NCBI GenBank assembly: GCA_030613025.1
Contig: JAUWMT010000030.1
Span: forward strand, 1-33,684
Length of the DNA stretch: 33,684 bases
Direction of reading: 5' to 3'
From: Candidatus Cloacimonadota bacterium
Lineage (GTDB): Bacteria > Cloacimonadota > Cloacimonadia > JGIOTU-2
In this document: piece by piece, positions 6,444 through 17,264 of the stretch
Layout: every line of letters begins with the position of its first letter
Numbering within the stretch: the first letter of the stretch is position 1
Translations under genes and position numbers: made by a program
The notes under the pieces: model-generated
Told to the model about the DNA's origin: nothing
What the model saw: only the letters and a program-made list of their open reading frames with translations
Databases searched by the model: none

Positions 6444-6469
6444 CGTTACCAAGCAGGGGCTTAGTAACG
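6444..6469. repeat. Intergenic palindrome, TTACCAAGC type
   Basis: The arms CGTTACCAAGC (6444-6454) and GCTTAGTAACG (6459-6469) pair with one C/A mismatch around an AGGG loop. The architecture (11-base arms, 4-base loop) equals that of the element 19 bases upstream, but the arm sequence differs. A smaller palindrome, AACCGTT/AACGGTT (6508-6514 with 6517-6523), lies between it and guaA. Confidence 0.7.
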
Positions 6470-11119: not shown

Positions 11120-12067
11120 ATGGCAATAATCGGAATAACGATCGGCGACCCAACCGGCATCGGTCCAGAAATTATTAAGAAAGTACTATCGGCAGACGCA
11201 CTTAACCACAAGTTAGTTATTTACGGAGCGCTTCCTGATTCGGTAGTATTAGATAATATTGCAATTATTTCCAATTCAAAAGAGATCAAGCAAGCCGATT
11301 CTAATGTGCTTTGGTATCCTGTCATGAAGGAGGAAAAATTTATTTTAGGGAATCCATCGAAAGCAAGTGGACTTGCCGCATACTCTGCAATAAAAAAAGC
11401 AGGCGAGGATGCCTTGAATGGTTACATTGATGCGATCGTGACAGCTCCCATTAGCAAACACCATATACAGCTTTCTCATTCAGATTTTATCGGGCATACT
11501 GAATTTTTTGCTCGTCAGGCAAATTGCCCTGAATTTGTAATGAGCTTCTTTAGCGATAAACTGAATGTTGGCTTACTTACGACCCATTGTGCATTATATG
11601 ATGTTTCTTCTCATCTTAATATTGAAATGATAGTAGCAAAAATTCACATCATTAATAATTCATTAATAAAATTCTTTCACGTAGCAAATCCCAAATTAGC
11701 TTTGCTCGGGCTCAATCCCCATGCCGGTGAAGAAGGGGCATTTGGCAATGAAGAATTACATGTCCTGCTGCCCGCAATGGAAATGCTTCAAGATCAGGGT
11801 GTTGATATAACCGGTGCCTATCCTGCAGATACCTTCTTTGCATGTGACTATTCTACTTATGACATGATAATTGCTTCATATCACGATCAGGGCTTGATAC
11901 CCTTTAAGATGCTTGCTTTTGATACTGGAGTTAATGTTACTCTTGGGCTGCCATATATACGTACTTCTGTTGACCACGGCACTGCATTTGCAATTACCGG
12001 CAAGAATAAAGCATCTGAAAGAAGTCTATTAAGTGCAATAGCACTCGCTGAAAAAATGCTTTCATGA
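11120..12067 (+). CDS. pdxA: 4-hydroxythreonine-4-phosphate dehydrogenase
   Basis: The enzyme oxidises 4-phosphohydroxy-L-threonine with NAD in pyridoxal 5'-phosphate synthesis (DXP-dependent route). Family blocks are all present: ITIGDPTGIGPEI at the N-terminus, TAPISKHHI with DFIGHTEFFA (metal His), LLGLNPHAGEEGAFGNEE and IASYHDQGLIPFKMLAF with further metal His residues, and GLPYIRTSVDHGTAF near the end. Length (315 residues) is typical. It lies 19 bases after tRNA-Phe with no good Shine-Dalgarno, so it may be read from the same transcript. It overlaps rnhB by four bases (ATGA). A related enzyme acting on other hydroxy-acid phosphates cannot be excluded from sequence alone. Confidence 0.93.
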   Translation: MAIIGITIGDPTGIGPEIIKKVLSADALNHKLVIYGALPDSVVLDNIAIISNSKEIKQADSNVLWYPVMKEEKFILGNPSKASGLAAYSAIKKAGEDALNGYIDAIVTAPISKHHIQLSHSDFIGHTEFFARQANCPEFVMSFFSDKLNVGLLTTHCALYDVSSHLNIEMIVAKIHIINNSLIKFFHVANPKLALLGLNPHAGEEGAFGNEELHVLLPAMEMLQDQGVDITGAYPADTFFACDYSTYDMIIASYHDQGLIPFKMLAFDTGVNVTLGLPYIRTSVDHGTAFAITGKNKASERSLLSAIALAEKMLS

Positions 12068-12681
12068 TATCAGAATATCAGCATTTTCCTGAATATAAAA
12101 AAATAATTGGAATTGATGAAGCCGGCAGGGGACCCGTTGCCGGTCCGGTTGTGATCGCTGCTGTGATATTACCACAGGAATGTGATATTATTGGCATTAA
12201 TGATTCCAAAAAACTATCAGCTAAAAAGAGAGATGAGCTTTTCAAACAGATAACATTTCAAGCACTTCATTATGAATACAAGATTATCCAGCATACAATA
12301 ATTGATGAAATAAATATACTTCAGGCGACTTTTCTGGGTATGAATGAACTTTTACAACCTTTTCTTTCATCATCTCATTTAGCGCTCATCGATGGTCCTC
12401 ACTTACCCAAAAAAGAATATGATGAAAACTGTAAGTTGATTCTCAAATCAGTAGTATCCGGTGACAGTACATACATGTGTATTGCTGCAGCTTCTATCAT
12501 TGCCAAGGTTGTAAGGGACTCAATTATGGCCAACTATCATAAAAAATATTCGGTTTATGACTTCAGCAATAATAAAGGTTATCTCACCAGGAAGCATAGA
12601 ACTGCAATTGAAAAGCACGGCATTTGTCCTATTCATAGAAGAAGTTTTTCGCTGGTGAAGGAAATATATAAAACACAATAA
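12064..12681 (+). CDS. rnhB: Ribonuclease HII
   Basis: The enzyme cuts the RNA strand of RNA-DNA hybrids and removes single misincorporated ribonucleotides. The motif GIDEAGRGPVAGPVV gives catalytic Asp18 and Glu19. LALIDGPHLP gives Asp110, and AAASIIAKVVRD gives Asp152. The further family blocks NDSKKLSAKKR and NKGYLTRKH, plus the C-terminal HRRSFSLVK, are intact. The length of 205 residues is usual. The start codon overlaps the pdxA stop (ATGA), so the two are translationally coupled. The 180 bases after it carry palindromes and the promoter of the next gene. Confidence 0.96.
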   Translation: MISEYQHFPEYKKIIGIDEAGRGPVAGPVVIAAVILPQECDIIGINDSKKLSAKKRDELFKQITFQALHYEYKIIQHTIIDEINILQATFLGMNELLQPFLSSSHLALIDGPHLPKKEYDENCKLILKSVVSGDSTYMCIAAASIIAKVVRDSIMANYHKKYSVYDFSNNKGYLTRKHRTAIEKHGICPIHRRSFSLVKEIYKTQ

Positions 12682-12718: not shown

Positions 12719-12770
12719 CTTTACCAAGCCCTGCCCTCCAACCTCTTTACCAAGCCCCAGCTTGGTAAAG
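12719..12770. repeat. Intergenic palindrome, TTACCAAGC type, plus half copy
   Basis: CTTTACCAAGC (12745-12755) and GCTTGGTAAAG (12760-12770) form a perfect 11-base-pair stem with a CCCA loop. A lone left arm with the identical 11 bases lies at 12719-12729. The loop is the same as that of the GTTCCCAA-type element at 6400. Confidence 0.75.
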
Positions 12771-12861: not shown

Positions 12862-14088
12862 ATGAAAAGAATTATTGTTTTAATAGTCATATTAAATGCT
12901 TTAGCATTTTCTCTTTCAGCATCAAGCCACCATGCACTCGTAATAGGTAATGGCAATTATGAAGGAGTTTATCTTCGCATCTCTGTTAAAGAAGAAACCA
13001 ACAACAAACAGATTCCTTGGGATTCCTCCTACCTTACAGATAATTTTATCTTTGCTATGAGTTGTACACCTAAACCTAAAGAACCAAAACAAGAAATTGA
13101 GGTTGAAACAGAATATACTTATGGGCAAATAAAAGTTGAGAGCAATGCAGAGGGATCTGTGTATGTTGATAATGAGTATGTATGCTCCATTACAACAGAT
13201 TCTATTAAAACTTTAAAAAATATACGAACCGGTTCTAATACAGTAAAAGTAAAAACAGATAATGAAACAAAAACTGAATATGTAACTGTACAGAAAAACA
13301 GCACCTCCTCAGTTTCCTTTTATTTTACACAAGAAACAATAACCGAAGACAACATGGTTTTCGTCCAATGTGGAACTTTCCGTATGGGCAGCGATGATGG
13401 AGAAAGTGACGAGAAACCTATACACAGTGTTACTGTGAGCGATTTTTATATTGGGAAGTATGAAGTGACAAACAGAGAATTTATTGAATTTCTAAACACA
13501 AAGAAAGTAAGTTCAAACGGGAGTTATAGTGGGAATGAATATATTGATATGGATGCTGAGGATTGTGCAATTGGCTATAGAAATGGGAAATTTTATTTTA
13601 AGGGCAGCCAATATGCGAATGACATAGATTGTCCTGTGATAGTGATAACCTGGTCCGGAGCTGATGCATATTGCAGATGGAAAGGAGGACGCCTGCCCAC
13701 AGAAGCGGAATGGGAATATGCAGCAAGAGGAGGGAATTGTAGCGGAAAATGCACATTCTCTGGGTCGAATAACATAGGCGATGTCGCGTGGTATAAGGAT
13801 AATCCAGGGAGTAAAGCCCAAAAGGTAGGCACAAAACATCCAAATGAACTTGGCATCTATGATATGAGCGGCAATGTGTGGGAATGGTGTTCTGACTGGT
13901 ATGATAAGAATTATTATTCAAAGAGTTCAACGAACAACCCAACCGGACCAGGTAGTGGTGCGTACCATGCCTTGCGTGGTGGTGGTTGGACAGACTTCGA
14001 ATATCACTGTCGGGTTACTTTTCGCGGCGATGGTAGCCCGAACAGTAGCAATGTTGATATCGGTTTTCGTCTCGTGATGACTCCCTGA
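12862..14088 (+). CDS. PEGA plus FGE-fold protein with remnant of a caspase-like domain
   Basis: The signal peptide (1-20, ending LSA) is followed by SSHHALVIGNGNYEG, the start of a C14 caspase-like domain. Residue 36 onward (VYLRISVKEETNNKQIPWDS, then SYLTDNFIFA) reads as the end of that same domain. The roughly 200 residues between, including the catalytic His and Cys, are missing without a frameshift. Residues of about 85-155 form a PEGA domain (GSVYVDNEYV). Residues 165-405 form a formylglycine-generating-enzyme-type fold (MVFVQCGTFRMGSDDG, GGRLPTEAEWEYAARGG, GNVWEWCSDWYD, LRGGGW, GFRLV). Compared with true FGE, the first active-site Cys is Asp378; only Cys383 remains. It is therefore probably a surface ligand-binding or structural protein, not a sulfatase activator. 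Confidence 0.8.
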   Translation: MKRIIVLIVILNALAFSLSASSHHALVIGNGNYEGVYLRISVKEETNNKQIPWDSSYLTDNFIFAMSCTPKPKEPKQEIEVETEYTYGQIKVESNAEGSVYVDNEYVCSITTDSIKTLKNIRTGSNTVKVKTDNETKTEYVTVQKNSTSSVSFYFTQETITEDNMVFVQCGTFRMGSDDGESDEKPIHSVTVSDFYIGKYEVTNREFIEFLNTKKVSSNGSYSGNEYIDMDAEDCAIGYRNGKFYFKGSQYANDIDCPVIVITWSGADAYCRWKGGRLPTEAEWEYAARGGNCSGKCTFSGSNNIGDVAWYKDNPGSKAQKVGTKHPNELGIYDMSGNVWEWCSDWYDKNYYSKSSTNNPTGPGSGAYHALRGGGWTDFEYHCRVTFRGDGSPNSSNVDIGFRLVMTP

Positions 14089-14460: not shown

Positions 14461-14513
14461 GTTACCAAGCCCAAGCACCCACAACCTCGTTACCCAAGCC
14501 CCTGCTTGGTACC
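14461..14513. repeat. Decayed TTACCAAGC-type palindrome cluster
   Basis: GTTACCAAGC at 14461-14470 is a lone left arm. CGTTACCCAAGC (about 14489-14500) followed by CCCT and GCTTGGTACC (14504-14513) is a near copy of the palindrome with small insertions. It resembles the pair at 12719-12770 in layout: half copy first, full copy second. Confidence 0.6.
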
Positions 14514-14595: not shown

Positions 14596-14646
14596 TTGAC
14601 ATTAACTCTGAAAATTGTCTTTTTGCCTTAAAAGAAATGGACGGAG
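14596..14646 (+). promoter_or_regulatory. Promoter -35 box and start-deciding ribosome binding site
   Basis: TTGACA lies at 14596-14601; the -10 element is not clear. GGAGGT at 14642-14647 sits five bases before ATG 14652. It decides that start over the in-frame ATG 14637, which lies upstream of the Shine-Dalgarno and has none of its own. Confidence 0.5.
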
Positions 14647-14651
14647 GTGCC

Positions 14652-17264
14652 ATGAAGAATTACAAAATACTTTTTATTTTTGTTTTATTAATGCTACTAT
14701 CATCTTTTTTATATGCTCAGGGGTCCTGGCATCCTGAGAAAACCTATTGGCCAAGAACGCTTATTGACAGCAGCCAGACAGCTATCAATGAAGTAAAAGC
14801 AAGGGTTACAGTACAGCCATTCCTTTCAATCTATAATGATATTAAAACAAAATCAGACGTGGATTATACTACATGTACTACAGAACTTCAAAAAGCAGTT
14901 GTTGCTCGTTGTGCTGCATTTCGCTTCTTCATCGAAGATGTAACATTTTATGGAGATAAAGCAAAAAATTATCTCCTTGTAATGCAACGTGCATCCTATT
15001 CAAATATAGAAGAACAATATAAAAACATTCTCTGGGATTCTGAAATGCTGTCACTGGCTTGTATTGCGTATGATTTTTTAAAAGGGAACAGCTATGACTT
15101 TGGTGGATATGAAGCAGAGGTTCGTGCCAAAATCCAGGATATTGCAGGAGATATGTATTATGATTTAGTTACGAGCAATCCGTGGACAAATCCTTTGCAT
15201 CTTATGTGGGATATCGGTTTTGGTGAGCAGATAAACTATGGCGTAAAATTTGCTTCTGCTCTCGGTATGTGTGCGATAGTTTTGAACACGGAAACCACAG
15301 GTGATACCGATAAACAGCCGGAAACATGGATAAATTATTGCATGCAGAAAACAAATTTGCAGTTTAATGATTGGCTTGTGAATGAGCAAGGCATGTGGGC
15401 AGAAGGTCCACACTATCTGTCATTCACTGCTTCCAGTTTTTTGCCTTTTGCGATATCACATGATAATTTTGTGAACAGTCAGTCCGAGTATTACGACGGT
15501 GAATTCTTACCTCCACTTACACAGAATGATAATTTCCAGGCAATCCCCGAGTGGGGTGTAAAAATACGCCAACCCAACGGAGCACGTCCCAATTTTGATG
15601 ACAGTTTCCTAAATCCCTTCTTCTTCAACGGCATGCTCGCTGAACTATACAACGATGATGTGCTTGCATGGGATTTTGTTGATTCTTCAGACCCATATTT
15701 TGTGGGTGCAACTTCGGGCAATATTGATGTGGAAATGATCTGCACTTATGATGATATTGATTTTCCCGGGACAACACCTCCTGATTTTTCTCCCACACAG
15801 TTCCTACCTGATGCCGGGCAGGCAATATTTAGAAGTGATTGGAGTGAGGAAGCGACCTATATGTGTGTGATCGCTGAAAACGGACAGGCGCGTGAAGGCG
15901 GACGAACACACGAACATCCTGATAATGGCAGTTTTATTATTTATGCACTCGGAGAACTGCTCGCTATGGATTCCGGTTATATCAGTTGGGATAAAAGAGA
16001 CAGTGTGCGTTATGCAAAAAATCACAGTATGATACTTGTGGACGGAGAAGGTCCACCTGCATCCACACTTACTACTGCGGAAGGAACCGATGCAACTATT
16101 GGTCAATATTATGATACCGAAGGATTAGATTTTACAAGTGTGTTCACTAATTATCAAGACACAGATTTTTTGAGAATGTTCACTTTTATTAATAATTCAT
16201 ATTTTACAATAACAGATATGATTGGTTCATCATCAACTCATGATTATTCATTTCTCCTTCATGGAAATGGTGGAGGATCAACAGGGAACGGTTTTTTCCT
16301 TGGCACAGACGGTTCGGTGTATTCTGTTAATGATGTTGATCTGAACTTCTTTATAAATTCCGCACATCCAATAACTCTCGACAGTTTGGATGATTATCAT
16401 GATGACGGGACCTATGATGTGCCGGCAACCCATACAGTTACGAGAGCCCAGGTAAATGCCCGATTCGGACTTTTTACATCCTTCCTTATACCCACTCTGG
16501 CAACTACAAAAGATATTACCTATACCCCAATAGACACTGATAGCACTTGTGGAGGTACGATAGAAATGGGTAGTGAGCAAGCAATCCATATGGGAAATGG
16601 TGCCAATTCTTTGCAAACCATAGATTTTTTCGGAACTACCCTGGGGTATGATTCGATGGTACTTCATGTTGTGAGAACTGGGGATATTCCAATTAATATT
16701 CAGCTCACATATGGGCAGACTTTTATTTATGGAGATAAAACACTCATCTATAGTGATGTCGATAACATTATTGCTTTGAATATTGGCGCAGCATCTGCTG
16801 ATGGCTATGTGAGCGAAGCATGCACTGTGGAATTCTTTACAGGAAATGCTCCATCAGGCGTAACCGGCGGAACGTTCATCGGTTTCGATCAAGGTGTTTC
16901 AACTATTTCGTTTGATGGTGATGATAATTTTGAAATAGAAGTTGTATGGTCATTGGACTATGCTGTAAATCCTGAGCCATCACAAAATCTCTATGATCTT
17001 TCTGTATATCCAAACCCATTCAAGCAAACTAATGAGATCTCCTTTACTCTTTCCGTTCCACAAAATGTAAAAATTGAGGTTTTCAATATTAGAGGACAAA
17101 AAATCGCAACCCTTACTGACGAAGATTATGCAATCGGTTCACATTCCGTCACATGGAACAGAAAGAACGAGGCTGGCAAGTATGTTGCAAATGGAACATA
17201 TTTATACAAAATATATTTTGATAAAGGCGACACAATTTTAAGAAAAGTAAATATCCTAAAATAA
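14652..17264 (+). CDS. Secreted heparinase II/III-like polysaccharide lyase with C-terminal sorting domain
   Basis: The signal peptide is MKNYKILFIFVLLMLLSSFL plus YAQ. Residues of about 35-330 form a helical region like the (alpha/alpha) toroid of alginate/heparin lyases. Residues of about 400-470 hold the heparinase II/III core (GGRTHEHPDNGSFIIYALGE, LLAMDSGYISWDKRDSVRYA, NHSMILVDGEG), in which His-Pro-Asp-Asn-Gly and the Tyr and His residues are typical of the site. A beta-sandwich region follows. The last 85 residues (DLSVYPNPFK ... FNIRGQKIATL ... NGTYLYKIYF) form a type A sorting/FlgD-like domain used for type 9 export in the FCB group. It probably cuts uronic-acid polysaccharides outside the cell. 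The substrate is unknown, and no sulfatase or sugar transporter lies beside it. Confidence 0.8.
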   Translation: MKNYKILFIFVLLMLLSSFLYAQGSWHPEKTYWPRTLIDSSQTAINEVKARVTVQPFLSIYNDIKTKSDVDYTTCTTELQKAVVARCAAFRFFIEDVTFYGDKAKNYLLVMQRASYSNIEEQYKNILWDSEMLSLACIAYDFLKGNSYDFGGYEAEVRAKIQDIAGDMYYDLVTSNPWTNPLHLMWDIGFGEQINYGVKFASALGMCAIVLNTETTGDTDKQPETWINYCMQKTNLQFNDWLVNEQGMWAEGPHYLSFTASSFLPFAISHDNFVNSQSEYYDGEFLPPLTQNDNFQAIPEWGVKIRQPNGARPNFDDSFLNPFFFNGMLAELYNDDVLAWDFVDSSDPYFVGATSGNIDVEMICTYDDIDFPGTTPPDFSPTQFLPDAGQAIFRSDWSEEATYMCVIAENGQAREGGRTHEHPDNGSFIIYALGELLAMDSGYISWDKRDSVRYAKNHSMILVDGEGPPASTLTTAEGTDATIGQYYDTEGLDFTSVFTNYQDTDFLRMFTFINNSYFTITDMIGSSSTHDYSFLLHGNGGGSTGNGFFLGTDGSVYSVNDVDLNFFINSAHPITLDSLDDYHDDGTYDVPATHTVTRAQVNARFGLFTSFLIPTLATTKDITYTPIDTDSTCGGTIEMGSEQAIHMGNGANSLQTIDFFGTTLGYDSMVLHVVRTGDIPINIQLTYGQTFIYGDKTLIYSDVDNIIALNIGAASADGYVSEACTVEFFTGNAPSGVTGGTFIGFDQGVSTISFDGDDNFEIEVVWSLDYAVNPEPSQNLYDLSVYPNPFKQTNEISFTLSVPQNVKIEVFNIRGQKIATLTDEDYAIGSHSVTWNRKNEAGKYVANGTYLYKIYFDKGDTILRKVNILK

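Follow-up and report, generated by a model that had tools for sequence, protein, structure and literature searches.

How does a bacterial protein come to open on the first strand of a caspase-like domain and run straight on into the end of that same domain? This question is raised by a gene in a 33,684-nucleotide stretch of a Candidatus Cloacimonadota genome (hereafter the window), whose product starts MKRIIVLIVILNALAFSLSASSHHALVIGNGNYEGVYLR and continues directly with ISVKEETNNKQIPWDSSYLTDNFIFAMS in the translated open reading frame. Codons 1-39 abut the last ~25 residues of a peptidase C14 domain (ISVKEETNNKQIPWDSSYLTD), after which come a PEGA-like domain and then an FGE-fold domain. The parts of the gene are:

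12862..14088, + strand: the whole caspase-deleted gene, a single open frame of 408 aa
12862..12978, + strand: codons 1-39, ALVIGNGNYEGVYLR, a signal-peptide-like hydrophobic N-terminus and the first C14 caspase strand, with 79% identity to residues 1-39 of a full-length homologue
12979..13056, + strand: codons 40-65, ISVKEETNNKQIPWDSSYLTDNFIFA, the C-terminal tail of the C14 domain, with 80% identity to residues 213-242 of the full-length homologue
13117..13317, + strand: PEGA-like beta-sandwich, residues ~86-152, with 76% identity to the G006 protein over residues 38-157
13345..14076, + strand: FGE-sulfatase / SUMF1-fold domain, residues 162-405, matching PF03781 (E=1.8e-59) and FGE entries in the PDB

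The frame reads as a sequence-only reading of this DNA had claimed, with the first caspase strand joined straight to the C14 domain end, and both pieces match one C14 domain. The same reading held that frame and downstream domains were kept, and this is borne out: the frame contains no stop codons, the PEGA-like and FGE-fold parts are present and the signal-peptide-like N-terminus is retained. The FGE-sulfatase domain at 162-405 is the sole domain called by a Pfam scan of the protein; the peptidase C14 profile PF00656 gave no match to it, and the p20 catalytic His and Cys are missing.

Two full-length homologues from the same genus, G006:C24 (440 aa, PF00656 E=1.9e-45, with a PDZ domain at the end) and G001:C161 (a 516-aa open frame, PF00656 E=4.4e-45, plus FGE), have the same start and the same continuation around an intact caspase domain, so that the homologues on which the sequence-only reading depended do exist, the one in G001 being syntenic. 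In the codon alignment, 175 codons (525 bp) are absent from the window gene relative to both. R39 is common to the window and the homologues, matching resumes at I215 in both of the latter, and their His94 (YYSGHG) and Cys144 (LDACRDN) fall inside the absent segment. The earlier estimate of about 200 lost residues including the catalytic His and Cys was thus right about the two residues and too high for the length, and the junction, which it had placed at residues 34-37, lies at residues 38-40 (12974-12980). When the full-length G006 N-terminus was used as query, the window returned two abutting matches in one frame, to residues 1-39 (79%) and 213-242 (80%), both beyond chance (E = 5e-13 and 1e-8 per genome), while the majority of the fetched caspase homologues align across the core as one piece. 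With its flanks in register with one C14 protein and with an orthologue at the same locus, the window protein descends from a C14 protein.

The ends of the missing segment can be located to within a few bases:

12974..12980, + strand: breakpoint interval TTCGCAT, from codon comparison with the homologues, read from the assembly

Its left limit is set by CTT (L38), where the right parental site has GTN, and its right limit by ATC (I40), where the left parental site has AAY. In the G001 allele, which belongs to a diverged relative and is not the parental allele, both parental sites read CGTA exactly at the breakpoint, a 4-bp identity that is compatible with illegitimate recombination without proving it. 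The C-terminus has a history of its own. The window FGE part is only ~50% identical to that of G001 and the PEGA-like part is absent from the G001 protein, which indicates that the C-terminus was also exchanged and that the history comprises more than one event. On G006:C24 (L147, 8098-11780), two tandem caspase genes have a post-caspase segment and a PEGA-like domain in common and differ at the C-terminus (PDZ versus none recognised), a case of rapid C-terminal domain exchange.

The chromosomal site is defined by two anchors, and REP-like palindromes of the form TTACCAAGCCCC(A/T)GCTTGGTA lie on both sides of the deleted gene:

12064..12681, + strand: rnhB (RNase HII), upstream anchor, with 88% identity to the G001 rnhB, which adjoins the full-length caspase gene
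12747..12767, no strand assigned: REP-like palindrome TTACCAAGCCCCAGCTTGGTA, upstream of the deleted gene
14491..14511, no strand assigned: second REP-like palindrome, degenerate, located downstream where G001 has the partner gene
14637..17264, + strand: secreted heparinase II/III-like protein carrying a Por sorting tail (PF07940, PF18962), downstream anchor

In the window the order is pdxA, rnhB, the deleted gene and the heparinase-like gene; in G001 it is pdxA, rnhB, the full-length caspase-FGE gene, an IS200-like (Y1) transposase, a 511-aa partner gene and the heparinase-like gene, and DNA identity between the two is ~79% from the upstream palindrome into the breakpoint. A full-length paralogue was looked for in the same genome; neither it nor any second copy of the gene was found in this 98.45%-complete assembly, and the full-length counterpart is instead the orthologue that a sister species (G001) carries at this locus. 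The site is empty, with rnhB followed directly by the heparinase-like gene, in G007, both rnhB-bearing G006 contigs, G003 and G004. Since it is full-length in G001 and empty in these others, the caspase cassette would be either an addition common to the window and G001 or a loss in the remaining relatives. The partner gene, whose product has weak, sub-threshold similarity to FlgT_N and DUF4384, adjoins full-length caspase genes in G001, G006, G034 and G114. Its nearest relative in the window's genome is just 25% identical, and a search of the window for a remnant of it matched intergenic repeats alone, so the window lineage either lost the neighbouring partner gene along with the caspase core or never had it. 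The joint absence of core and neighbour hints that the two may function together.

The palindrome TTTACCAAGCCCCWGCTTGGTAAAG is dispersed, occurring in the window at 12747-12767, 14491-14511 and 6447-6467 and on the G000 contigs C74, C35, C98, C16, C24 and C76, with 8 genome copies at <=2 mismatches versus 0 for the reversed control. One copy on C35 is ~350 bp away from a match to an IS200-like (Y1) transposase, and a REP palindrome near a Y1 transposase is what is expected of a REP/RAYT system.

The window's genome holds other C14 proteins, on C17 and C88, with other architectures (CARDB and WD40), and a third ORF, C14-like and bearing His and Cys motifs as read from sequence, adjoins the FGE paralogue on C74 (L004). 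L004 (C74 of G000) and L010 (C113 of G005) are caspase-free FGE-fold proteins beside a separate caspase-like ORF; set against the fusion proteins, they represent the neighbour form of one caspase/FGE pair that also occurs fused. PADLOC left the window protein unmatched and assigned its relatives to the generic caspase model alone, and a literature search on caspases in Cloacimonadota found no paper.

How rare such a scar is was assessed by searching 125 genomes of the phylum with a joined-scar profile, built from artificially joined relatives and the window sequence. The window gene matched at 1.7e-34, a value inflated by the inclusion of its own sequence, and the informative part is therefore the absence of other end-to-end matches: among the 125 genomes, positions 1-64 of the profile were matched in one piece by the window gene only. 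Other matches cover one side of the junction or end soon past it, and in the closest relatives the two halves appear as separate matches ~500 bp apart. The description of this scar as rare thus holds within the phylum, at 1 of 125 genomes.

What the shortened gene still encodes bears on what the loss meant. The FGE-sulfatase part fits its family by profile (PF03781, 201.9 bits against a cut-off of 23.3) and by fold, with formylglycine-generating enzymes in the PDB matched at E=3e-32 by sequence and 1e-12 by fold, although the superposition is poor overall (TM about 0.5). The LCHDSYC motif of a solved FGE, whose cysteines near the C-terminus we take to be the copper-binding pair of true formylglycine-generating enzymes, aligns with TDFEYHC in the window, where the first Cys is replaced by Asp. 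With the first of the two copper cysteines missing, the FGE-fold part is probably a binding domain. A diversity-generating retroelement (DGR) target was considered as an explanation for this domain and rejected, as the sole reverse transcriptase found in the genome belongs to a Cas6-RT-Cas1 CRISPR fusion. That protein, L137 (G000:C43, 439-3126, - strand), is a CRISPR adaptation protein with Cas6, reverse transcriptase and Cas1 fused (PF10040, PF00078, PF01867). PF08308 finds no match in the window's own PEGA-like domain; the neighbouring G006 gene carries a homologous domain that scores 22.3 bits against a cut-off of 20.8. An AlphaFold model built on a thin alignment (mean pLDDT 59.5) predicts a helix at residues 2-17, disorder at residues 14-86 and PEGA strands at 87-143 with mean pLDDT of 71-83; the fold matches to solved FGE structures come from the FGE part of this model.

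Taken together, we consider it very probable that a resident caspase-PEGA/FGE gene between rnhB and the heparinase-like gene lost its core by one in-frame 525-bp deletion and that a non-proteolytic product was retained. The comparison itself shows the deletion, its frame, the loss of residues 40-214 with His94 and Cys144, the synteny and the lack of the partner gene. The event itself was most likely an illegitimate recombination at a very short match, through replication slippage or end-joining. Its product would still be exported with its PEGA-like and FGE-fold domains, the leftover caspase pieces forming a disordered linker, and would be at most a non-proteolytic envelope or secreted binding protein. 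Of the two options that the sequence-only reading had offered, a precise deletion or recombination between gene copies, the simple in-frame deletion is the better fit, with no second copy left in the assembly.

A possibility that we take seriously without favouring it, and that agrees with the deletion, is recent pseudogene formation: the gene would be in the course of being lost, its frame not yet decayed. In its favour, the window also lacks the partner gene found after the full-length caspase in four relatives, and the caspase tail carries 4 private amino-acid changes in the window versus 1 and 1 in two relatives, a hint of relaxation in counts too small for significance. Against this, the PEGA and FGE parts are intact across 340 codons, the upstream region is conserved and pairwise dN/dS with relatives in the PEGA part is ~0.11, near the 0.09 between two undeleted genes; this pairwise comparison shows purifying selection on the retained part.

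Unequal recombination between two tandem caspase genes, fusing the beginning of copy 1 with the tail of copy 2, we judge improbable. The tandem pair in G006, with its common post-caspase segment and PEGA-like domain, shows that tandem copies occur in the genus, but homologous exchange would retain the domain and an illegitimate junction would be needed anyway; moreover, the syntenic site in G001 has one caspase gene and the window's genome lacks a second copy. A bolder extension of the deletion reading, to which we give slender credence, is that the event released a secreted PEGA-FGE module for sensing or binding from both protease and partner gene, and that selection maintains this module to compete with the caspase system or act as its decoy; if true, it would be a natural split of sensor from executioner. 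An assembly artefact, in which the core is present in the organism and was skipped or collapsed, is very unlikely. The assembly is a draft in 98 contigs, but the junction repeat is at most 4-6 bp, far under any assembler word size, so that a collapse is not expected; the junction lies within a contig, with no Ns and the frame preserved, and a search of the 98.45%-complete assembly found the core sequence at no other site. The core might also be excised in a programmed or phase-variable manner within the population, as the flanking REP-like palindromes and the IS200-like (Y1) transposase gene that separates caspase from partner in G001 could suggest. We find this hardly credible: no long repeat or recognisable site marks the breakpoint, both palindromes are extragenic and the assembly does not contain the core.

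Losses of middle domains are usually deduced from phylogeny. The in-frame deletion described here can be followed directly in sequence: both breakpoints and the frame, several empty sites, and an orthologue that retains the core at the corresponding locus.

Among known systems, the closest are the bacterial metacaspase/orthocaspase-FGE fusions (C14-PF03781), FGE-sulfatase being present in 4.9% of 671 putative prokaryotic metacaspases (PMC3501461). Like them, the window protein has a signal peptide, first strand, caspase tail and FGE domain in order; unlike them, it lacks the 175-residue catalytic core, with both residues of the dyad. It resembles the pseudo-orthocaspases (PMC6426788) in having no His-Cys dyad and in being presumed inactive in proteolysis, but these retain the p20 fold with the dyad substituted, whereas here the fold itself is removed. 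A caspase homologue on L184 (G032:C279, ORF near 1555), with FYYTGYT for YYSGHG and FLENRS for LDACR as aligned by eye, is by these motifs a putative pseudo-orthocaspase with both dyad residues substituted. Caspase-free PEGA-FGE proteins also occur naturally in the class, such as L011 (360 aa), which shares with the window protein an export signal, a PEGA-like domain and an FGE domain; L011 differs in its lipoprotein-type signal and in lacking caspase remnants, whereas ~41 residues left over from the caspase still mark where the window protein came from. In the window gene, the caspase-FGE fusion common in bacteria exists naturally without its protease. Bacterial caspases fused to FGE and caspases inactivated by substitution are both known, and a core removed in full, with both ends still readable, is a variation on these. 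The event stands as one well-documented instance of domain loss and does not amount to a new system.
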